Below, piece after piece: positions 1 through 24,626 of a stretch of DNA of 64,000 bases. The translations under genes were made by a program, and so were the position numbers. The notes under the pieces are model-generated. The model had not been told where the DNA came from, ran no database searches, and was given only the letters and a program-made list of their open reading frames with translations. Source of the DNA: Rhizodiscina lignyota (Eukaryota > Ascomycota > Dothideomycetes > Aulographales > Rhizodiscinaceae); contig ML978123.1 in NCBI GenBank assembly GCA_010015805.1, forward strand, positions 2,418,001 through 2,482,000. Direction: 5' to 3'. The number at the start of each line of letters is the position of its first letter. Position 1 is the first letter of the stretch.

Positions 1-1715
1 CTGGCGAAGATAAGGAGTAAAAGGTCGCGTTGTGACAGAACCGAATTCACTCAAATTCAGATGTGTATGTAATTTTAGTCTACTTCGGGCTGAAAGACGT
101 GGAATGGATTGTCGAGCTCTTCGGTCGTCAAACCTCAATGCTATACAAAGACTTAACGTTCGTGCCCCTATGCCTCGCGCCCGTAGTACTGAAGGAGCAA
201 ACAACTCGCTGTTGAGACAGACATGAGAAATTCACTTTATTTTGGGTCAACGGGAAAGCTTAGGATGCAGTGCATTTTCATGCTCTTGATTCGTTCCGCT
301 TAGATATACCTCGGAGTTTGAGGATGACAGGCTTATCAGAAGATGAAAGGACGCCTTGGGGTCACGCCGCTAAAAGCCAAGTACATATTGATGCTTAGAT
401 AGCCAGTAAGTATCTCGAAGTTCTGAAAGACGATATGTTAGTGTATATTTCTTAAGCACAATTAGTGAAGTATTGGAATTAAAGGCTGCGATTTGAGACA
501 AAATTAAGTGGATTAGTCTAGCAGTCTATCAGATTGCTTTAATATACAACTTCGCTGCGATGACTTGTGACCCCATTTCTTCGAGCCCCGGAGGATGTCG
601 AGTACGCAAGCGGTGACAAAAGAGTTGGCCGCAGCTTTCAAGATACTAAGCAGCATCGGTGTTCTGCCTCTACGGATAAAGTAATAGACACGTTTTCAAA
701 TGGCTTGCTGTAATCTAATGCACTCCAGAGGCTACACAACTGAACTTTCAGAGATAGTCTCGATTACTGTGAGCTGGAAGAGCTATTAGCCACTGACTGT
801 AACACCCCCTGCTCGCTGCCAACTGAATTGTCACCCCGAGTGCCTCCATATCGTTCGACCATTGAGTCGAGGCTAGCCTTCGTATGAGCTTTCATCAATC
901 TCATCGTCGGACTCCTCTTCAGGAGCACCCTCTACCCCTTGGAGGTGTTCGGGGATTCCGACAGACGGGACGCTCCCAGGTTTCTTCTACCAAGAGCATT
1001 CGTCATGAATGCTGAGCAGATCCTCGAGCATCTCGTCATACAAGTTGCTATCGTAATTATGCTTTGCATGATTCGAGATCTGCAACTTGAACAGGATGTT
1101 ATTAAGGCTCTCGTCGTGATCGACGAGTGAGGTGGGAAAACTTGTCGTCTACCTAGTCCTCATCTGCATACTATGAACGAGATGCGTAATAACGAAGCAT
1201 AGACGATGTCTAGCATATATAGTCATCTCCAGCCAGAGAAGGGCATCCTTGCCCTTACATTGGACATACTGGACAACACATTCTAAGAATATGGTCTCCA
1301 CGGTGTCGAGGGTCTCCCAGTACTTGTTGCACCACCCGCTCATACGAGCGAGGCGCTCTGAAAACACTTTTCAAAGCTTGTACCAGTTCCAATTTGAGCG
1401 CTTAGACTTCTGATGGACAGAAAACGAGCGGACGCCAAGCAGTCTGGTTGAGAGGCTGTCCTATTCAACTGAACGGCTGTAGTAAAAACAAGTTTTATTC
1501 TTTAGCACGAGCGGGAGCGTCTCTGAGCGCTCGATTAGATATATTCTAGGGCTTATTCATCTAAAACGCGCAGCTTTAGTATATATAATCTATATTAACT
1601 GCTAAGGATATGCATCCCTGTAGTTCGATACATTGCAGCTATAACTTAACTATTTTATTACCCACTTGGTAGAGTCGCCGGCGAAGTCGTATCTCTTAAT
1701 GTAGAATAATGGCCG
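1..1715. other. gene-free decayed DNA at left edge
   Basis: No convincing gene is visible. Open frames are short, lack homology-like segments and are interrupted on both strands. From about 1400 the sequence becomes AT-rich with many TA dinucleotides, which fits RIP-type decay next to the repeats that follow. No transposase, reverse transcriptase or RNA gene was recognised. Confidence 0.5.
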
Positions 1716-1810
1716 TACTCCTCGTCTAGGACGATTTATAAGAACGGTGTGCTATTCGCATACGTTTAGCTTTAATTGGTCAAAGCCGGGGAGAATTTGC
1801 TCACCGGAGT
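1716..1810 (-). pseudogene. decayed inverted copy of the tRNA-like element
   Basis: Read on the minus strand, this stretch begins with the same 44-nt block as the tRNA-like element at 10337-10380; 43 of 44 bases match. It then continues through a degraded D-arm, the same anticodon-loop core (CCGTTCTTATA), and ends at a GGAGTA resembling the 3' acceptor strand. Differences in the tRNA body are largely C/T and G/A transitions, and the T-arm is not recognisable. It is therefore read as a dead copy. The strong conservation of the first block compared with the body is odd. Confidence 0.5.
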
Positions 1811-1885
1811 ATGATGTCTCTCCTCTTGCCTTCGAGAGGTAATTCACACTGCGCTAGGTAGTGCCAATTTCAGCAGAGTTGCTAG

Positions 1886-2830
1886 ATCTGTATCGATCCG
1901 ATCCTGCAAATATCGTAAGGCTTGTATCCCTGCATATTACTTTGAGGATGACAAAATAGCAGGCCGCCTGGCACTTTGTAACGTTTAGGAGCAAGCAGCC
2001 CTCGCACTTCGATGCAAGTGAGACTATATCTGAAAGCTTAGTCCTATATTCCTTAGAGTGTATTTTGCAATATCGATCTTACTAGAAACTTTGTACAGTT
2101 TATTAAAAATAGAGGCTACTCACAATAGCTACCTAATGTCTTAAAGGAAGGCTGCTACGAGCATCTTCAACCCCCTTAAGTTGACTTTACTTCTCTCGGA
2201 TGACACTAGGTTACTATAATCTTATTACCCTATGCTACATTTCCGGGTCTAAATAACGTACAATTTTGCTACTACATCTGTATTAATCCGATCCTGTAGA
2301 TAAGGCATGTCTCTGCGAGACTGCGTCTTATGGCCGACTACCGGCCCCGTAAGCTGTAAGGTCCAAAAGCAAGCAGCTCTCACACTTCAAGGCAAGCGAG
2401 ACTATCTCCGAAGGCTTAGTTCTACATTATTTAGAGCGTATATATCAAAAGCATCCCGTTGATAGATCTGTATGTCTTGTCAATTAGACTCTGTAGCGGA
2501 CGGGTAATCGATAACGTCTTAAGGGCGAGTAGCACTTGCTTAAATTTCTCTTAAGGATAGGCGGGACTGTATCTAGAAGTTTAATTCCACGCTCTTTAGA
2601 GTGTATATAATTTGATCGCCGGGGAAGTTGTAATGTTTAACGGGAAACAGCTCTTACTCTTCCAGGTAGATAGGACTATCGTTGAAAATTTAATTATACT
2701 TTCTTTAGAGTGTATATAATTTGATCGCCCGGGAAGTTGTAATATTTAACAGAATACAGCTCTTGCTCTTCAAGGCAAATAGGACTATCATTGAAAATTT
2801 AATTATACTTTCTTTAGAGTATTTATGATA
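1886..2830. repeat. five diverged copies of a short repeat family
   Basis: Two longer copies (about 1886-2063 and 2276-2441) share an ATCTGTAT...GATCCGATCCTG head, a middle resembling GCAAGCAGCYCTC, and a tail ending TTTAGAGTGTAT. Three shorter copies with the same tail end near 2606, 2717 and 2826. The last two full periods are 109 bp each, measured by the tail motif at 2595, 2704 and 2813. Most differences between copies are transitions, suggesting RIP. No open frame or terminal inverted repeat was found, so the family is unidentified. Confidence 0.65.
2595..2812. repeat. two tandem 109-bp units
   Basis: The string TTTAGAGTGTATATAATTTG starts at 2595 and again at 2704, and a diverged form starts at 2813, giving an exact 109-bp period. 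The two units differ at scattered positions, mostly A/G and C/T exchanges. They are the youngest-looking part of the larger degenerate family around them. Confidence 0.75.
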
Positions 2831-2879
2831 TATCTGTTCCTCGGCTCATTCAGACTCCTGTCTAGACCTCCGCTTGACC

Positions 2880-5421
2880 TCAATCGTCCTCAGCAGGCGG
2901 CTTATGCATACCAGAGAACTGGTAGACCTTCTCTTCATCCGGGTCCACGCAGAATAACTCCGGGTCCAAGCCTTCCCTAGAAGCGTCCTTCGATTGCATC
3001 CTCGACGTAAGGGCCCATATCATGGTCTCATTGCTCAGTAGTAGAGACTCACTGGTCCATGAGCAAGGACGACCAATATCTTTGCAGCGCGGACAGGTTT
3101 CTGTACCAGGAAGTTGTTTGCACTCAGGCTGAGCGCCGGTCGTCCTTTCATAGACGTAGCAGCTGTCGCACTCCCTTCTGTGTCCACTCGTGTTGCCTTT
3201 TCCTAATTTGTTCAAGCTAGCTCTTCCGAAAGCTCCTCCGATGTTCTCCAAGCCGACCTTTTTCATTTCTTCTATAATCTCATCCTCACTCTTGCGGTGC
3301 GCTTTCCACGGGATAGCCGACTTGCCAAGCTGCTCACTGAACCGATAAGTTTGGGTGAACCAATCGAACTCGGCCCTAATAACCCGTGCCATACCAAATG
3401 GTGGTCTCCATTCGTCACGCTCGGGATCCAACTCTCTGGAGTCCAACAAGTGTCGCTTCAGGTGCCGAATGATGCCAGTAGCGTCCACATACGGTTTGAG
3501 TGAGCCCGGTACATCGGGGTTGTACATCTGCGACACCCAAGTTAACACATTTAACTATATAATTCCGTTGATTAAAGTGCCTACCAATAGAGTTTGAGTG
3601 AACTGATAATATAGTTCCTTCCACTGTCCAGTTTTTAGGTCTTGCCACTCAAACCTTGCTCCGAGTCTAGCGGCATCGGACCAGTCGCTGAATGGTCCGA
3701 TATCTGGGAGCAATGCCAGAGGGTATGGATGCATCTGACCTTCCGGAACGATCTCGAATGTGGGGTATACCGGAGTTCCCTGCGGCGGCAACTCTCCTTC
3801 GTTGGTCTGGAAGTTGACAACGAATATTTTCTCTTTCGGGTCTCTTGGTGAATTTACGCGCAGAGTATAGAGCTGGTAGTGGTCGCAGTGATCTTTTCCA
3901 CCGTCCTCATGGTTTCGAAGTACTTTGCGACACTTGTATGGCACTCCTCGACGGTAGTTCTCGACTTTGCCGATACCAGGGAATTCCGCCTCGGTAAGCA
4001 CCCAGAGCCTCTTCTCGAAGCCAGACTCTTCGAAGATGGGGCTGGCTCTGTTCAACCCATCTGTGACACTCTGCTCTTGGCCGCAGAAGCTCGCTCGAGT
4101 GGTCGCACCTGGCCAACCAGAAATCATTTTTGCCTTGTCGGCGATGGCCTTCAGACGAATAGCACAGTCCGACATGTCCGCGTAAGTTGCCGTCCAAGCA
4201 CCGAGGTTTTGCTTGTGAGTCTCGTTGGTACTAGCGACTGTGCTGGGGCTGAGCTTCGGATTGAATAGCCTCGAGTTGTACGTCTCCATGAGCAGCATAC
4301 ACACTTGCTCCCTGACTTCTCGCTCGGATTTATCGTCGATTGTTTGTCGACAGAGTACAATAGCGAGCCTTGTCCTCGCAGCATGCATAACCTGTTCAAA
4401 CTGTGAGAGGGAATCTAATTGTACAGTGGGTAACGGTGGGATAATACCTTGTAGGGATAGAAATGCCAGTCTTTACGGTTCTCGTCGAAGCAATCATTCT
4501 TGTGTTGTTGCCACTGCAAGCTGAAGTTGTTTGTCGAACCGACATACTGCCGACTGGAACCATCAGGCCAGACTCCAGGAAGCTCGTCTGTCGGTACAAA
4601 GTCCGAATAGTCGCAAAGGTAAATACCATGATTGCCTAAAACCATATGAAGCAAATCAGAACAGGTCCCTATTCAAGCCATGAACCACAGGCCAACTTAC
4701 CCTTCTCGTTCTTCGAATCGATCTTCACTGCGGCTTCAAGGAGCTCTTCACGTGTGAAGTTGGGCTTGTTCAAGACATCCAGCACCCCTGCCTGTCTGAA
4801 GCCCTCGTGCATTTTGTAGACGAATTTTGGGATATTGGAACCGGTTTCGCCCATCTCGGACACCCATTTAGTTCCGACAATGTCCAGTCCTTCACCTCTT
4901 GCCGCGTGTATCGATCGAACGAGAGCGTCAAGTGCCTTGTACACTTGATCTTGGTCCGCAGGTATAGGTATGTCAAACTTCTTGCCTTCTCTCTCTTTTG
5001 CCAAATGCTCGAATTCTATCGAGAACTGTCCCGGAATAACCTTCACGCCCGGCTCGATGTCTTCATGCGAAACTTCAAATTTGTGGACATCGGGTTTGAT
5101 CTCTCCGGGGAGAATGCCTGATTCTGTTGCCGAGTGTTCGGGTGTCCGCTCCACTTGGACAACGCACGTCTTCTCCAGCTCGTTGTTCGTTAGAATTGTC
5201 CCCACATCGCCCTCAAAGATTTGGATTTCTCGCGTTTTTGCAGTTGTAGCAGTGAAACCTCGTTTAGCTCGGAATGTATAGTCTTTCTCGAACCGGGGTA
5301 TGTCCGATGAATGTGACATACTAGGCATAGAGCCATAGTCCGAGGATTCGAGGTTCGGGAAGGAGCCGTAGTCCGATGTATCGAGGTTCGGAAAGGAGTC
5401 GTAGTCTGATGTTTGAGACAT
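2880..5421 (-). CDS. GIY-YIG-like domain protein with C-terminal Cys6 cluster
   Basis: Four-exon model, 787 aa: exons 5421-4701, 4635-4448, 4391-3585 and 3527-2880, with introns of 65, 56 and 57 nt that restore one continuous frame. The N-terminus carries three copies of an SDYGSFPNL-like repeat. Joining exons 1 and 2 creates HGIYLCDY (about residue 243) followed by QYVGSTNNF and QWQQH; exon 3 adds CMLLMETYNSRLFN with candidate catalytic Glu339 and Asn347. This order (GIY, YVG, H, E, N) is that of GIY-YIG nucleases. The Arg normally found between YIG and His appears replaced by Gln, so activity is uncertain. Residues 692-727 hold C-x2-C-x12-C-x8-C-x2-C-x6-C, similar to but looser than a fungal Zn2Cys6 cluster. 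It lies between RIP-like repeats and duplicated genes. The domain call is inference from motifs; a T5orf172/MUG113-type relative is an alternative. Confidence 0.7.
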
Positions 5422-6625: not shown

Positions 6626-7450
6626 TCATGAGTCGTCAGTGCTTTCTTTAGGCTTCGGAGACTCCTTAGTCTCCTCATCTAAAGTCACCGTCACGTCTTC
6701 ATCTATAGGGTCAGAGTAACCGATAGATGACTCGCCCTGGGACATCGCACCACTCCATTCAAGTGATGCTGGAGCTGTGAGCTGAGAAGCAGTCTGAAGA
6801 GTAGGACCGACCGGCAGAGACTCCGTGTCGGAAGCCATATCCACATTGGAAGTCATGCCTACGTCCAATGCGTCCATGGCCTCTAGAAGATCATCCGTGA
6901 TTTCTGTATCACCTTGATCTTGCTCTTGATCTTGCTCTGCGGATGGTGAAGGCCTTGCCTCCAACTGATCGCCTGCAATATTGTCGAGACTCTGTCTCGC
7001 GGAGTCGAGCATGCGCTCTTGATCGGGAAACTGGTTTGCAATCTCGGAACCAAGAGGCCAACGCTGACGGATTTGCTGGTACACTCTTTCCGCCTCTAGA
7101 CGGTAGCTTTCAGCCCCATCCCAGTCGTCGACAGCGCAAGCTAGGATCATATTGACCCTTAGTCTTTCGCTGTAAGGAAGTTCGGGCTCCCAGAGCAGCT
7201 CCATGAGTTGCTCGACACACTCTTGATGACGTTCCGTATCGTAGAGCGCGTAAGCGGCACGTATTCGAAAGATGAAAGCAACCTCGACATTGTTGAAAGG
7301 TCTTAACATCTTTTTTAAGACCGAAGCGTGAAGTGTTGATTGTATGTCGAGAAGATGAGTTGGATGACGCGAAACGAAGTAGAGGGTTAGTCGATAGCTC
7401 AATCTTACGCTAAGCCAATTTTGGATTGGCACCAAACCCAACTTCCGCAT
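6626..7450 (-). CDS. hypothetical protein, duplicated family, helical repeat-like
   Basis: Single open frame of 274 aa from the first in-frame ATG at 7450. The 5' end is uncertain, and an upstream exon or a start at 7309 is possible. The conserved core (about residues 20-125) is rich in amphipathic helices; it contains ELPYSERLRVNMILACAVDD and AESYRLEAERVYQQI and resembles TPR-like fungal orphan proteins. The C-terminal half is acidic and low-complexity, with EQDQEQDQ and many Ser/Asp/Glu. A decayed copy of the core lies at 9600-9820, so the family duplicated locally. I do not recognise a function. Its place in the RIP-affected zone suggests a lineage-restricted gene. Confidence 0.55.
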   Translation of the reverse strand: MRKLGLVPIQNWLSVRLSYRLTLYFVSRHPTHLLDIQSTLHASVLKKMLRPFNNVEVAFIFRIRAAYALYDTERHQECVEQLMELLWEPELPYSERLRVNMILACAVDDWDGAESYRLEAERVYQQIRQRWPLGSEIANQFPDQERMLDSARQSLDNIAGDQLEARPSPSAEQDQEQDQGDTEITDDLLEAMDALDVGMTSNVDMASDTESLPVGPTLQTASQLTAPASLEWSGAMSQGESSIGYSDPIDEDVTVTLDEETKESPKPKESTDDS

Positions 7451-7880
7451 CGACGGCACGCCCACGACGCGGTGACAAAAGTTGAGCACGGCGAATTCAA
7501 CAGCCAGTAAGAGCAAGTTTTATCCTTTAGTATAAAACATGTTTCAGTGCAATTTTTCAACAAGATAATGGATATTGCTCTATTTGTTGCTACCATAATG
7601 CTACTTGGTCACTACTGTCATCTAAATGGGATGTACTATATACGAGGGAAGCTGTGACTTGTGTTGTATTGTGTGCAGATGTGCAGATGTGCAAAGCTGT
7701 AATTTTCAAGGCGGCTCAGTTAAATCAGTATCAATAGTTATGTCTAATTATTAGAAGAAATTGTGTTGAGTGCTCATCTTGGTTTCCCGTAAAGGTACTT
7801 ATCCCCAGCACCACGTAAAGGTGTGAGCACATCGCTGAGGTCTGCTCTATGAGCAGAGATTTTTTCCTGTGGGTTTACTC
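7451..7880. other. intergenic spacer
   Basis: It lies between two minus-strand genes and would hold the upstream sequences of the 6626-7450 gene. The frame of that gene stays open to about 7516 without another ATG. Nothing else was recognised. Confidence 0.4.
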
Positions 7881-8738: not shown

Positions 8739-9599
8739 GTTTTATGGTTCAACTGTGGAGAGGGAAAGGAAGAAAGCAGGAAGTCGAGTGAAAGCGAGAT
8801 ATTTAACTGCAGCCAGCGGCGGCCCGTGCATTTTAGACTTTCCCACAATCAAAGGTCATAACATCATTTCGGGCTCAAGTGACGCCGCAGACTTATCTTC
8901 ATACCTTAATGGGCACACTTTTCACTCTTCCTCTGTATAACCGTGCCAATACGCAAGAATTTGGCTCGATCATTCAACTTAATACGTGAATTGTTACTGT
9001 CCTCTCCAACAGTACTCTAAGCCGTCAGAACGCGGAGCCGTCCACGGGAATTGGTATTCGCCAAATCACTTTATAGAGCATGGTGTGAGTAGAATAGAGT
9101 GAAGCTGGCTAAGGTAGCTCCACGTTAAGATGGGAGCCCCAAATGGTCCCTCCCCCCCCACATATTTGTTAGCACATTCAATCTACCTCTGCAATGCCAC
9201 AAAGTCTTTTTGACGGCATGGGCTCGTGACCAGTGCATGCATTGCAATCCAAACGGCTCGGACAGGATGATAATCTGATCGCATTGCACGAAGGAGTTAG
9301 TTTCTTGTGAGGGAATGAGACCTGCAACGGCGTCTCTTTTCCGCCACCATAAGAAGTAAATCTTCTAAGGCAGGCCTGATAAGCTACTCCCTGACAATCT
9401 CGAATGTAAACTTACCACTATGTAGAAGCTTCTTAAACATGCTGAAGGCGACTGTAATATAGTAGCTCTGTAGACTGTTCAGTCGCAGCAAACTAGCGCC
9501 TTCGTAATAACATCTTAGTGAAGAAATTCTGTCCGCTCCGACCGTCTGCGATCGTAAGACAACGGTATCAGACACATGTGATTTTGACTGAAGAAGTCG
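8739..9599. other. gene-free spacer
   Basis: No supported gene. Open frames are short and unlike known proteins. A CCCCCCCC run lies near 9160. Sequence between about 9384 and 9600 may be further decayed remains of the duplicated gene whose recognisable part starts at 9600. Confidence 0.35.
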
Positions 9600-9820
9600 T
9601 CCTTGTAGCCCGAATACCAGTTGGTTAGCGAGGCGTGCTTCTTCTAGACGATAGCTTTCAGCCTCGTTCCAGTCATCGACGGCGCGGGCTAGGATCATAT
9701 TGGCCCTCAGTCCTTCGCTGTAAGGAAGCTCCTGGATTACCAGAGCGCGTAAGTGGCCTGTATGCGAAACCTGAAAGTAACTTCGACGTTGTTGGAAGGC
9801 CTTAACATTTAGGCAGATGT
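9600..9820 (-). pseudogene. decayed copy of the 6626-7450 gene
   Basis: Positions about 9640-9815 align with 7093-7310 of the intact gene. Shared peptide words are AVDDW, AESYRLE and MILA, plus a weaker LANQL versus IANQF match. The copy lacks an internal segment of roughly 45 bp present in the intact gene, and both ends of the frame are gone. Many differences are transitions. It is a nonfunctional paralogue fragment on the same strand as the intact gene. Confidence 0.7.
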
Positions 9821-10336
9821 AGATGTGAATTCTGTGTGATCGAGGTGACGTTGAAATCTCGACTCCAGTGCGCCGGGGGGGTTGGGTTGGTGGGGCAGCA
9901 ACACAGTTGGGTCCGAGTCCTATGATTGCCGTATTATTTTATATTTCGCAACGGCGACGAGGAAAAAATTTATTATAAATTTGGAAAATATAACTTTAGT
10001 ATACTTAAATGTCTACTCTTAATTTTTTTTTAAATTATAATATCTTAATGTGGTGAGATATAAGCGATAGTCTCAAGACATATGCAAGTTCCGAAGAAAC
10101 GGCAGAAAACTGACTTTTTTATATTGTTATTACGTGCTCCCTAATAGTTATATTTTAATTATGAAAAGTGCATATTAGAACTGAGTAGCTAAAATATCCT
10201 TCTGACTTATTTTATTTACAAAAATACTACGGTGTTGTTCAATTATCTTCCCTGGGGCAAGGGAGGGTTTATTTAGTGATATTGTCATATCTATATGTAA
10301 TAGCAGCCTTTCCTAGTGGCTTGATTTTCAGGCCTG
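9821..10336. other. AT-rich gene-free island
   Basis: From about 9940 to 10260 the sequence is strongly AT-rich (for example long A/T runs around 9960-10050 and 10150-10210), typical of a RIP-mutated stretch. No open frame, terminal repeat or RNA gene was recognised. It immediately precedes the tRNA-like element. Confidence 0.5.
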
Positions 10337-10486
10337 ACTCCGGTGAGCAAATTCTCCCCGGCTTTGACCAATCAAAGCTAATAAAAGGCCAGTTGGCGCA
10401 GAGGTAGCGCGCCGTTCTTATACTAGTCATTTGCACTCGTATGAATAGTCATGCGGATGTCACGGGTTCGAATCCCGTACGGAGTA
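10337..10486 (+). tRNA. tRNA-like gene, anticodon TAT, with two insertions
   Basis: Removing 10343-10392 and 10423-10450 leaves a near-complete cloverleaf. The acceptor is ACTCCGT (10337-10342 plus 10393) against ACGGAGT (10479-10485), 7 of 7 pairs, with discriminator A10486. The D-stem is GCGC/GCGC; the anticodon loop CTTATAA has TAT at 10419-10421. The T-stem is ACGGG/CCCGT with loop TTCGAAT. The only flaw is a T:T mismatch closing the anticodon loop. An A box (10394-10404) and a B box (10465-10475) are intact. The 28-nt insertion after position 37 is where eukaryotic tRNA introns sit. The 50-nt insertion inside the acceptor stem is abnormal: it starts GTGAGC, has CTAAT and ends CAG like a spliceosomal intron. 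TAT would decode isoleucine AUA; a Met (CAT) gene altered by a C-to-T change is another reading. Function is unproven. Confidence 0.5.
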
Positions 10487-11516
10487 TATCTTTTTAAAAG
10501 TTGCATTTCCTATCATTCTGCAAATTTTAAATTAATTTTTTGGGCTGTAGTGGTGAAGAAAATACATTTTTGGTGGCGGTGGTGAGCCGGGCCACGGCGG
10601 GAACCTTTCTCCCATGGACGAAAACTCGGTGATTTTGTACAATAATCAGACAAATTCCAGTTAGGTATTAACAGAGGGATGAAATATTCCATCAGTAGCT
10701 TCTAGGTTTTTAGAAACTCACTCAAATTTAAGACCTAGAGCTCTTCTTCTTCTTCCGAAGCTGTGGCGGGGCTATATTTGTCGTTAGATGGATTCAACTT
10801 GCACGGACTACGAAGCTACCGGGCCAAAGTAGAAAACTCGAGTTGTGAGAGGACAAACTGAAATGGAACTCTCGAAAAATGTTACTATTGCGAAAAGCTT
10901 TCTTTGTTCTTTCTCGTCCTCCACCTTTTGCCCTTCTCCTTCTTCTCCTCCTTCTCCTCCACCTTCTCCTTTTGCTTTTCCTTTCTCAGTTACAAAGGAG
11001 CTAGTTTCCTACGAGCGAACAGTATAGAGCTACTCTATTATAGTTGCCTTCAGCACTTCTAAGGAGCTTCCGTATATCACGGAGTTTATATTCGATGTTA
11101 TATAAGAGTAGCTTATCAAGCCTACCCTAGAAGATTTGCTTCTTCTCGTTATAAAAAAGAGATGCTATTACAGGTCTCACACCCTTATATAAAACGAGGT
11201 CCTTCGTACTATCCCTACCTACTTAGCTATATAGGGGAGTGTCGGCGAAGCGAGCGTCGCCGCGGCAGCAGTAGGAGGAGGGGTTATAGGCGATTATAGG
11301 TAGAAATGGAGCTATGAAATACGTAAACATTCACTATGCTAATTCATATCTGATTAAGCAAGACTTATATAGTGTATAACGGACGACATTATGTTGCTCT
11401 TACGTTACCAACGCTAGGAAGTGGGCAGAGGTCGCTATGGAAGATTTCAAATGAAGCTGTATCATTCAGAAAACACAAGATAGTGCTATAGATTCTTGGA
11501 TTCCCCAAAATCTCTT
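10487..11516. other. gene-free spacer with pyrimidine-rich run
   Basis: No gene is supported. A CTTCTCCTCC-type simple repeat lies at about 10910-10985, and AT-rich decayed sequence is on both sides. The zone ends at the 3' end of the haloacid dehalogenase gene, which marks the boundary to conserved gene space. Confidence 0.45.
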
Positions 11517-12326
11517 CTACAGCTTACTTACATTCACACCGAGCTTCTCAGCGGCGGTAACAAAGCCTTCATTGCCATCCTCCACCCAAACGTCGACCCA
11601 CCCATCCTTCCTTGCCTGCTCGACCTGATCAGCCGGCATGTCCTCCTCCTGTGGCCTCCATACGTAAACAGCTGCAAAACCCAAAGCCTTTGCCGCCTTG
11701 AGATCATAAAGATGAGCAGCAACCATTGCACATTCGTTAGGTTTAAGCCCCATCTTCTCTGCACCCCCGAGATATACTGTCGGTGAGGGCTTGTACGAAT
11801 TAAACATCTCTGCGCTGATAATATGCGTAAATGGTATGCGTGAATGCGTCCGCAGATCCTCAAGCAATGATGTGTTGCCATTGCTTAAGGTGCAGGTGTA
11901 GAATAGCTTGTTCATCTCGGCAATTCCTCTCACAGAATCCGACCAAGGGTCAAGCCGGTGCCAAATGAGGCTCAGGTCATGTAGCTCATCCGGTGTCCAC
12001 AAACCCTCCAATGCATGCTCTTGTAGTAGTTCAAGCAGACTATCGTAATGATGTTGATCGACGTTCTTGTATGGGATATCCGGATTCGCTGCCAGCTTTT
12101 TGGTAAACACCTTGTAGGTAGTCCGCCATTTCTGCGCAAAGGTACCCCAGTCACCCACTGTCATGTTTGAAGCCTTCATTCGCACCGCGGATGGGATTGA
12201 GGAGGTAGCGGCATTGAGAGCTTTGCTTGATGCATCTTCAAGGCCACGAGTGACTGTGCCGCGCCAGTCTACGCAGGTACCGAAGACGTCGAAGAAAAGA
12301 CCCTTGATAGGCTGCGAGGAAGACAT
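11517..12326 (-). CDS. HAD-superfamily 2-haloacid dehalogenase, type II
   Basis: Intronless 269-aa frame from ATG 12326. All four HAD motifs are visible: the nucleophile loop FFDVFGTCVDW with Asp13, the CTLSNGNTSLL Ser/Asn loop, the Lys loop (FNSYKPSPTVY), and the acidic motif MVAAHLYDLKAAKALG. The spacing and the helical cap with a WHRLDPW segment match (S)-2-haloacid dehalogenases, which hydrolyse 2-haloalkanoates to 2-hydroxyacids through an aspartyl ester. Fungal members are often of unknown physiological substrate. No signal peptide, so probably cytosolic. An upstream in-frame extension exists but the AUG used here is the one adjoining conserved sequence. It is the first conserved gene after the repeat-rich zone. 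Confidence 0.85.
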   Translation of the reverse strand: MSSSQPIKGLFFDVFGTCVDWRGTVTRGLEDASSKALNAATSSIPSAVRMKASNMTVGDWGTFAQKWRTTYKVFTKKLAANPDIPYKNVDQHHYDSLLELLQEHALEGLWTPDELHDLSLIWHRLDPWSDSVRGIAEMNKLFYTCTLSNGNTSLLEDLRTHSRIPFTHIISAEMFNSYKPSPTVYLGGAEKMGLKPNECAMVAAHLYDLKAAKALGFAAVYVWRPQEEDMPADQVEQARKDGWVDVWVEDGNEGFVTAAEKLGVNVSKL

Positions 12327-21866: not shown

Positions 21867-24626
21867 TCATCTCCAGACCTTCTTCCCGCCCTCTTCTTCC
21901 ACTGTTCCTACTCTTGACCTCGCAAGTGGCAGCATACTCACCCTGCGCCCAGCAACACTGCTCGGCCTCGATGGCTTGCTCGTCGTCCTCACGCTGGGGC
22001 TCTCGTCTTCTGCCTCCGCACCAGCGTCCGGTTCCATGGCCGGTGTTGTCGGCACTACGTTCGCGCTACTTGACCGTCTTGCGCTGGCAGCTGCGTGTGT
22101 AGATGAAGCCGACGGGATCGAAGACGACGACGCACGATTCGCCTTTGCGAGTTGAGTGACGCCAGCAGCTGGCCTTACTCTAGGCGCCGCCAACTTGCTC
22201 GTGGTGCCAGGCGCTTTGGAGTCCCCTTTTGAGCCAGCCATCGCGACGCTCGCGGCCGCAAGACTCAATCTACTTGGAGGCCGGGTACTCCGATTGCTCG
22301 CGTTGCTCGTCGAGCTGTCAGCACGGCTGCGTGAAGGTGGTCTGCCTAGCCCGAGCGGACTTGGAATTGGTAATGCTGATCGCGTAGATCTTAACACTGG
22401 CTTTTGTCCCGTCGGAGTGGGCGAGTCTCTGCGGTGTGGTGATGGCGTGGTAGCGGAGAGCGGCTTAAAGTTGTGGCCTATGACGGTGTCTTTCATGTTG
22501 GTGCTGGAGTTCCATCTCGGTTTAGACGGGTCCATACCGGCCGGACTCCTTCCCGGATTTCGTCTGTTGCCTGGAGTAGGTGTCGTTGAGCACGCAGAGA
22601 AGCGAGGCGAGAGCGGAGAGTCCGATCCAGTTTCGCTGACCGAACCAGACATTGAGCGATTTGTTGAGATTATTTTCTGGGAGTACGGCGAGGTGTAGTT
22701 CTGTCCATAATTCTTCGCAACAACTGGTAAACTCGAGTGCCGTCTGTTTGCCGTACCCTGAACCTGGGTCGTGCTACTAGCGAAGCTGCTTTGTCTTGAC
22801 TTCCCGTTAACACCAGGCGTACCGATTCCAGAATGTCCGTACTCGCTGCTCTTGCGTGACATAAGAACGACGGAGCTCGCAGGGCTCGATCCAGGTGTGT
22901 CGACTGCCGATGACGCAATACTGCGGTCCATGCTCAGTATCGTGGAGATTGAATCGCGCAAGTTGTTCTTGTTAATATTCAATTCCACCAGCACAAAGTC
23001 CATAGCCTTCATCTCAGCCTCCAGCTCCGACCACTTCTCTTTCATATCCTTCTGCAGGGTGAGAACTTCGCCGTTGACTGTGAGCCTATCTCGGACACCC
23101 TTGTCTATGATGGCAAGGACACGCTTGATGGCATCACCGTAATGCGTCTTCTTATCCTCGTAGCTTTGGATCTTCCTCGTCATGAGAGGCGGATTTGTAT
23201 GTTGCTCTCCCTGGTCAAGCGCTTCACGTAGCTTTCCCATGCTCCTGCTGACGCTTTCGCACATCTTGATCATTTGCCGCCCAGAATTGCGAAACAGGAC
23301 TACCCATTTGTCCTCACCCAGCTCTCGCCTCAGAGCCTCAACGTCAGAATCCAACTTCCCGTACTTTGCCTCCAACTGCTCACGTCTATGCTCCAAGTCC
23401 ACGCATGCCGTAGGAAACGTCTCCGATCCCCTGTTTGAAAAACCGGCGAGCCGCATGGGCAAAAAGTCCAATGACGCGCGTAGTGGTTGCATGCGCGCGA
23501 CCAATTGCACAATGTTTGCATTCTCCGCGTCGTCGTTTTCCTGGCTAGCCTGTGACTGCAGAGCTTGTGGTGGAAACTCGGCGATGCTGAATCGATTGTT
23601 CACCTTTGCACCATTCCGGCTCGGCGCCTCTTCAACAATGGTCTCCAGCTCTTTAAGGTCCAGCTTATTCTCGCCCATCACGTCCACCATAACCGCTCTA
23701 TGCCTCCGCTCTTCCATCTCATACACGAACCGACCCAGCGATTCCAGCTCCAAGCCAATCTCTCCCAAGACACTGTTCCAAAGCTCTTCCCATTCCATCG
23801 CCAATTCGACCTGCTCCTTCACCTCGTCCAAGCTCCTCTTGATATCTTCCCAATCATTGAGTATTGTCTCCATCCTTTCCACCAGCACCTCCAATTCCCT
23901 CGGTTCTAACGTTGATATGTCTGGCCGTAGCTGTACATTCTCAATCGCAATGACATATACCCCGATTAGGCTCTGAAATCGATTTATCGCAATGTCGACC
24001 TCGTCCAGTCCATCTCTCCCGCCCGCGGCAGCCCATTCGACGTCATCTTCCGCATCCAGGCCATTGAGGACTTCAGACGCCTTCTTTATCCACCGCTTTA
24101 TTTGGTCTGCGGCATCAGTCAGTGCTCTTGCGGCGGCAGTGCTCGAAGGTATGGCAGCGATGCTTGTGGACAGCGACGACGCGTCAGGTAGCTTTATTGA
24201 CGTGAGCTGGGCAATTTGGCTTGTAAATGACACTCTCGAGAGGGTGAAGACCGAGTTCGTTCGGTGCACGCCATAGGGATTGAAATAGCCAGTCGGATCG
24301 TAGGCGGTGCTGGACGCGCTGATTGCGCTATTCGGCTCGTCTTTCGGAGGGGGAGTCGGCGCTGGACCGTCTGGCGACAGTGGACTCGAGCTACTGTTGC
24401 TGTTGAAGTTGCTGTTGAAGTTGCTGTTGAAGTTGCTGTTGAAGTTCCCACTTAAAGGAAAGGGTATGCTTCGGGGATGCGCCCTCGTCTTGCCGTGCTC
24501 AGGGAGTCTGTATTTGAGCGTGTCGATGCCATCGCCTTCCGAGTCCGATGCCATGGGGCGCGAGCTGGTGCTTATGATGCTCGAGATGTCGCTGTCGAGC
24601 TGCGTCTCTGCCTCCATGGCGGGCAT
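21867..24626 (-). CDS. KAR9: Kar9-family spindle-positioning protein
   Basis: Intronless 919-aa frame from ATG 24626. Residues 1-130 are Ser/Pro-rich and include an FNSN repeat. Residues about 150-560 form the helical Kar9 domain, with AINRFQSLIGVYVIAIENVQ, EVLVERMETILNDWEDIKRS and ELAMEWEELWNSVLGEIGLE. The C-terminal 350 residues are basic and Ser/Thr/Pro-rich, with SxxP stretches such as RSALPIPSPLG that are plausible EB1-binding regions. In yeast, Kar9 links the plus-end protein Bim1 to myosin V and orients spindle microtubules. Filamentous relatives are less studied. The assignment rests on domain pattern and size; it ends in the typical basic KKVWR. Confidence 0.85.
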   Translation of the reverse strand: MPAMEAETQLDSDISSIISTSSRPMASDSEGDGIDTLKYRLPEHGKTRAHPRSIPFPLSGNFNSNFNSNFNSNFNSNSSSSPLSPDGPAPTPPPKDEPNSAISASSTAYDPTGYFNPYGVHRTNSVFTLSRVSFTSQIAQLTSIKLPDASSLSTSIAAIPSSTAAARALTDAADQIKRWIKKASEVLNGLDAEDDVEWAAAGGRDGLDEVDIAINRFQSLIGVYVIAIENVQLRPDISTLEPRELEVLVERMETILNDWEDIKRSLDEVKEQVELAMEWEELWNSVLGEIGLELESLGRFVYEMEERRHRAVMVDVMGENKLDLKELETIVEEAPSRNGAKVNNRFSIAEFPPQALQSQASQENDDAENANIVQLVARMQPLRASLDFLPMRLAGFSNRGSETFPTACVDLEHRREQLEAKYGKLDSDVEALRRELGEDKWVVLFRNSGRQMIKMCESVSRSMGKLREALDQGEQHTNPPLMTRKIQSYEDKKTHYGDAIKRVLAIIDKGVRDRLTVNGEVLTLQKDMKEKWSELEAEMKAMDFVLVELNINKNNLRDSISTILSMDRSIASSAVDTPGSSPASSVVLMSRKSSEYGHSGIGTPGVNGKSRQSSFASSTTQVQGTANRRHSSLPVVAKNYGQNYTSPYSQKIISTNRSMSGSVSETGSDSPLSPRFSACSTTPTPGNRRNPGRSPAGMDPSKPRWNSSTNMKDTVIGHNFKPLSATTPSPHRRDSPTPTGQKPVLRSTRSALPIPSPLGLGRPPSRSRADSSTSNASNRSTRPPSRLSLAAASVAMAGSKGDSKAPGTTSKLAAPRVRPAAGVTQLAKANRASSSSIPSASSTHAAASARRSSSANVVPTTPAMEPDAGAEAEDESPSVRTTSKPSRPSSVAGRRVSMLPLARSRVGTVEEEGGKKVWR
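24394..24446. repeat. 12-bp coding tandem repeat in KAR9
   Basis: About four copies of GTTGCTGTTGAA in tandem. On the coding strand they give the peptide repeat FNSN near residue 65. A whole-codon period keeps the frame, so copy number can change without breaking the protein. Confidence 0.85.

Follow-up and report, generated by a model that had tools for sequence, protein, structure and literature searches.

Positions 10337-10486 on the plus strand of the window (the whole 64-kb stretch of DNA analysed) read as a tRNA-Ile(UAU)-like gene that is interrupted in its acceptor stem: ACTCCG (10337-10342) is followed by 50 nt (10343-10392), and the tRNA resumes with the T at 10393. We tentatively favour the interpretation, which we hold at slightly under an even chance, that a tRNA-Ile(UAU)-type gene gained a spliceosomal-type intron while it was live and that its transcript was processed then or is processed now. 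The support comes from the tRNA fold of the spliced form, from an intron signature at boundaries set by that fold and from a second copy that is incomplete but arranged alike. The insert itself is most likely of the spliceosomal-intron type and older than the second partial copy. The parts of the gene are as follows:

10337 to 10342, plus strand: tRNA positions 1-6, ACTCCG, the 5' acceptor strand, complementary to CGGAGT at 10480-10485; the BLAST similarity to the second copy starts here.
10343 to 10392, plus strand: insert of 50 nt with a spliceosomal-intron signature (GTGAGC; GCTAAT at 10377; CAG), the sole 50-mer in the window that matches the pattern.
10361 to 10378, plus strand: hairpin inside the insert (GCTTTGA with TCAAAGC), from folding (z = -1.21).
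10393 to 10422, plus strand: tRNA positions 7-37, with the A-box region and anticodon TAT, from the cmscan match to RF00005 and the cloverleaf.
10423 to 10450, plus strand: anticodon intron of 28 nt in the canonical position after position 37, from the pairing of C32 with the intron G at -3 and from ARAGORN on the spliced form.
10451 to 10486, plus strand: tRNA positions 38-73, comprising the 3' side of the anticodon stem, the T-arm (B box), the 3' acceptor strand and the discriminator A, from the RF00005 match and the cloverleaf.

With the insert in place, cmscan matched the Rfam tRNA family (RF00005) to 10387-10486 (+) at 32.6 bits, against a gathering score of 29, with a badly paired acceptor. 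Under relaxed settings Rfam returned three rows on 10200-10560 and eight on the whole window, among which only the tRNA reached its gathering score. When 10343-10392 was removed, the acceptor strand ACTCCG+T paired with ACGGAGT in 7 of 7 positions, and when the 28-nt intron was removed as well, the 72-nt cloverleaf became the minimum free energy (MFE) structure, at -26.5 kcal/mol. In this doubly spliced form the D-stem (4/4) and the T-stem (5/5) are also complete, and the anticodon stem has four pairs but is weakened by the unpaired T31:T39 and by a T30:G40 (U30:G40) wobble. The first-pass annotation had described the seven-pair acceptor, the regular D- and T-arms and a T:T mismatch in the anticodon arm, and all of these were borne out. 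The conserved D- and T-arm cloverleaf is thus the MFE structure of the spliced form; it is not that of the unspliced RNA.

ARAGORN found no tRNA in the whole native window or in the tRNA DNA with only the anticodon intron removed. With only the 50-nt insert removed, its default run reported no gene, and a run that allowed introns gave Met(cat) or Tyr(ata); the doubly spliced form was called tRNA-Ile(tat). The reading of the anticodon as Ile(UAU) depends on the assumed 28-nt intron after position 37, because Met or Tyr is proposed when the insert alone is taken out. That intron had also been annotated at first pass, and it is upheld by the Ile(tat) call and by C32, which can pair with the G at nucleotide -3 of the intron, the usual anticodon-intron pair.

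It could be argued that ACTCCG is unrelated and that the true tRNA, or its relic, is 10387-10486 with a decayed acceptor. This coincides with the best Rfam match, and completion of the acceptor with six or seven distal bases was obtained at 2043 of 127,580 real window positions on both strands and, when the upstream 150 nt were shuffled with dinucleotides kept, in 17 of 5000 shuffles. However, the similarity to the second copy starts at ACTCCG, and the splice signature lies at the boundaries that ACTCCG implies; we regard such a coincidence as scarcely credible.

The insert presents GTGAGC at its 5' end, then GCTAAT, then CAG at its 3' end; the branch A, at 10381, precedes the end by 11 nt. 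The tRNA fold sets its boundaries to within one base, an insertion one base upstream (between positions 5 and 6 instead of 6 and 7) being equivalent for the fold. PMC5832005 gives GTRWGT, RCTRAY and YAG as fungal motifs and 6-36 nt as the branch distance; measured against these, GTGAGC has one mismatch to GTRWGT, and GCTAAT, CAG and the branch distance of 11 all fit. The pattern GTR[A/T]G...RCTRAY...YAG matched 37 start-length pairs among 127,760 starts and 76 lengths on both strands, and at length 50 it matched only this insert; because the pattern was picked after the insert had been seen, this rarity is somewhat inflated. A slightly different intron pattern matched 1 of 127,900 50-mers in the window. 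Seventeen candidate coding introns picked out mechanically did not serve as a yardstick. The spliceosomal look noticed at first pass is real, and it falls at boundaries that the tRNA fold sets independently. The hairpin noticed with it is present but unremarkable, since 26 of 200 shuffles fold as well. An insertion of DNA-transposon type was rejected, since a script found no direct repeat of at least 3 nt and no matching inverted ends at the insert boundaries.

A second, partial copy of the interrupted tRNA, absent from the first-pass annotation, was found at 1810-1737 on the minus strand. It aligns with the gene in two blocks:

1766 to 1810, minus strand: ACTCCG and the first 39 nt of the insert, 44 of 45 nt identical, from BLAST and nhmmer.
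1737 to 1754, minus strand: the tRNA 5' half up to position 37 (ending CTTATA), 16 of 18 nt identical, both changes being G to A, from nhmmer and collinear with the first block.

The BLAST similarity begins at tRNA position 1, and the first 27 nt of the insert are exact, a match seen in 0 of 100 shuffles. The middle stretch between the two blocks is shorter than in the gene at 10337-10486, and all three substitutions within the blocks are C-to-T or G-to-A as read in the second copy. Taken alone, the 18-nt block has an E value of 0.76 in the 64-kb window, and we accepted it, as a matter of judgement, for its collinearity with the other block. When all that follows the 45-nt block was aligned leniently, the score was 40, against a shuffle mean of 32 and a best of 52 among 500 shuffles. 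Beyond position 37 nothing rose above chance (the 3' alignment scored 19.5, and 839 of 1000 shuffles did as well), which led us to reject a whole-gene duplicate with a decayed 3' half. No Rfam match to the second copy was obtained up to E 5.

Since the second copy has the same ACTCCG before its part of the insert and part of the tRNA 5' half after it, the insert was in this tRNA before the second copy arose. Its extent, positions 1 to 37, corresponds to the ends that RNase P and the splicing endonuclease give to a 5' exon, so that an RNA of this kind, with the insert retained, may have been copied into DNA here. The boundaries suggest this RNA origin, and their agreement could also be a coincidence.

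The second copy also bears on the first-pass proposal that the insert belongs to a family of introner-like elements and arrived by insertion at this site. Such elements are known in Dothideomycetes (described in PMC4457414), and the intron-like ends, short length and internal hairpin of the insert resemble them. The sole other copy in the window, however, has the same tRNA sequence on both sides rather than a separate insertion site, and because it is a copy of the interrupted tRNA, the two copies are not independent introner insertions. The boundaries lack repeats, and nhmmer detected no third copy of the insert within the window at E values up to 10, a weak test at 64 kb. Within the 64-kb window the proposal is therefore unsupported, and we consider it distinctly improbable. 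Wider searches found the exact 27-mer of the insert and a degenerate tRNA 5' half 0 times each in viral contigs. A 20-mer of the insert occurred in three stretches of bacterial and archaeal genomes, and when 270 nt of the locus were compared with these by BLAST, each matched the insert once, over 21, 22 and 25 nt (the 25-nt match has one mismatch), any other matches being weaker; these were taken as chance, with about 0.5 expected by hand arithmetic. No relative was found among the viral and prokaryotic sequences, which says little for a fungal gene.

A further way to remove the insert would be cleavage by the tRNA-splicing endonuclease at a bulge-helix-bulge (BHB). Archaea, red algae and nucleomorphs have non-canonical tRNA introns of this sort, those of nucleomorphs often being described as having no defined motif (PMC3978253, PMC4090602). 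Here, a BHB at positions 6/7 would have 2 of 4 central pairs, 1 inner pair and 3 outer pairs, and one at 5/6 would have 3, 2 and 1, so that three-nucleotide bulges around a 4-bp central helix were found at neither boundary; the pair test is not sharp, given that the control anticodon intron itself scored 2, 3 and 3, with 2 of 4 central pairs. One shifted boundary pair scored 4, 2 and 4 but fails to restore the acceptor. Endonuclease excision of the insert thus appears highly improbable to us.

The A and B box sequences are present in the tRNA gene, and two further elements in its flanks resemble Pol III signals:

10292 to 10296, plus strand: TATAT, 45 nt upstream of position 1, a possible Pol III TATA element, weak and in an AT-rich flank.
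10491 to 10495, plus strand: a run of five T residues, Pol III terminator-like, from a sequence scan.

The A box begins at T8, and 57 nt separate it here from position 1, where 7 would be normal. Pol III geometry would presumably put the initiation site within the insert and exclude ACTCCG from the transcript. The TATAT could override initiation set by the A box, although it is weak. The native unspliced RNA folds at -49.8 kcal/mol, against -33.9 kcal/mol for the constrained cloverleaf, and the sixth acceptor pair has a probability of 0.24; the RNA without the insert folds at -35.7 kcal/mol, against -31.0 for its cloverleaf. The native stretch folds better than shuffles (z -2.96). In its native fold the insert hairpins stand out and ACUCC pairs with GGAGU, and the D-arm and anticodon arm are absent.

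The window has the appearance of filamentous-ascomycete nuclear DNA. This judgement comes from Pfam, which, run on 10 of the 16 listed open reading frames (ORFs), matched KAR9, a fused AIR carboxylase/ATP-grasp protein, NFACT and serine hydroxymethyltransferase, with DUF7730 below threshold. A RIP-like index (TpA/ApT > 0.89 and (CpA+TpG)/(ApC+GpT) < 1.03) was found in 15 of 317 windows of 600 nt; 11 of these lie in 1201-3000 and 9401-11600, around both tRNA copies, and the other four start at 22001, 22201, 34401 and 62601. Beyond 12 kb, 0 of 11 AT-rich windows were RIP-like. Neither 10001-10600 nor 10201-10800, the two windows containing the entire tRNA gene, is RIP-like, whereas 10401-11000, with the 3' part of the gene, is.

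Two MITE-like repeats of about 220 nt, at 9288-9507 (+) and 10990-11207 (-), flank the tRNA locus in opposite orientation and are 75% alike. Their ends are of the ACGAAGG...CCTTCGT type, one end of the 10990-11207 repeat being altered, and transitions account for 33 of the 50 mismatches between them; in 23 of these, a C or G of the 9288-9507 repeat is replaced by T or A, respectively, in the other. The stretch 9643-9808 resembles 7095-7309 in two pieces, one of 104 nt and one of 67 nt, at about 84% identity, so that ORF 6626-7519 is partly repeated near 9.7 kb; it looks like a decayed partial duplication of that gene-like ORF. Degenerate repeats are likewise found near the second tRNA copy (2577-2829, 2344-2444 and 1977-2063); among them is a 109-nt unit present about twice in tandem.

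The RIP-like tracts and the flanking MITE-like repeats raise the odds that this tRNA gene is dead. On that account an intron-like or other sequence entered one copy, whose product is unprocessed, an intact gene elsewhere supplies the tRNA, and the partial copy at 1810-1737 would be another remnant of this dead family. We consider such a pseudogene nearly as likely as intron gain by a live gene. The clustering of RIP-like windows, the uniform direction of the three substitutions in the second copy, the missing 3' half and missing Rfam match of that copy, T31:T39 and the preference of the unspliced RNA for folds other than the cloverleaf all agree with it. Against it, the tRNA stems are intact save for the insert, T31:T39 and one wobble, with a perfect acceptor once the insert is removed; the splice signature lies at the boundaries set by the fold; and both 600-nt windows with the whole gene lack the RIP-like index. 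Intron gain by a live gene, in turn, has counted against it the distant A box, the exon junction CCG/TTGG, which differs from the usual AG/G proto-splice context, the unspliced fold, the weak anticodon stem and the repeat-rich, RIP-like setting.

If a live gene did gain the intron, an mRNA-type intron would have entered a Pol III gene, as in fungal U6 genes, and the gene would now carry a 50-nt spliceosomal-type intron in its acceptor stem, after position 6 (or 5), in addition to the usual intron that follows position 37. A functional gene would need a transcript that starts upstream of ACTCCG; the spliceosome would remove, or would once have removed, the insert and so restore the 7-bp acceptor stem, and the tRNA-splicing endonuclease would take out the anticodon intron. 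The narrower proposal within this interpretation, that the tRNA matures in this way today through both machines, seems doubtful to us. AUA accounts for 37 of the 147 isoleucine codons in five stop-to-stop ORFs of the window, and such use means that some AUA decoder is needed; under two-machine maturation, AUA decoding would depend on the spliceosome. More broadly, a true spliceosomal intron in a tRNA would mean that intron gain reaches Pol III genes without a link to the spliceosome, and it would have to be asked how RNase P and tRNase Z are kept from acting until the acceptor stem has been spliced. Among the open-licence papers listed by our literature searches, judged by titles and abstract openings, we found no report of a tRNA gene with a spliceosomal-type intron.

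According to PMC5832005 (2017), frequent interruption by introns is known for no small structured RNAs other than U3 and U6. U6 is a Pol III transcript from which an mRNA-type intron is spliced out in fission yeast, and the U6 snRNA genes of fission yeast and other fungi resemble the present locus in having a spliceosomal-type intron inside a small structured Pol III RNA (as described in PMC10484740). They differ in that the host here is a tRNA, whereas U6 itself takes part in splicing, which offers a ready explanation by reverse splicing, and in that splicing has been shown for U6 and is a proposal for the tRNA insert. The non-canonical BHB introns of archaea, Cyanidioschyzon and nucleomorphs likewise break a tRNA outside positions 37/38, and introns at acceptor position 3/4 are known in certain Thermoproteales tRNAs (reported in PMC4090602), but our locus lacks a strict BHB and carries a spliceosomal signature instead. 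The introner-like elements of Dothideomycetes share with it a short intron-like insert in a filamentous ascomycete; no independent insertion was seen in the window, where both copies have the same tRNA sequence on both sides. Fungal U3 snoRNA genes differ in the length of their introns, which average 92 nt against 50 here, and in their number, with 138 of 310 genes interrupted against one gene and one partial copy; like the tRNA described here, however, they encode a structured RNA whose intron, with the GTRWGT, RCTRAY and YAG motifs, lies mostly in a 5' stem-loop (PMC5832005).
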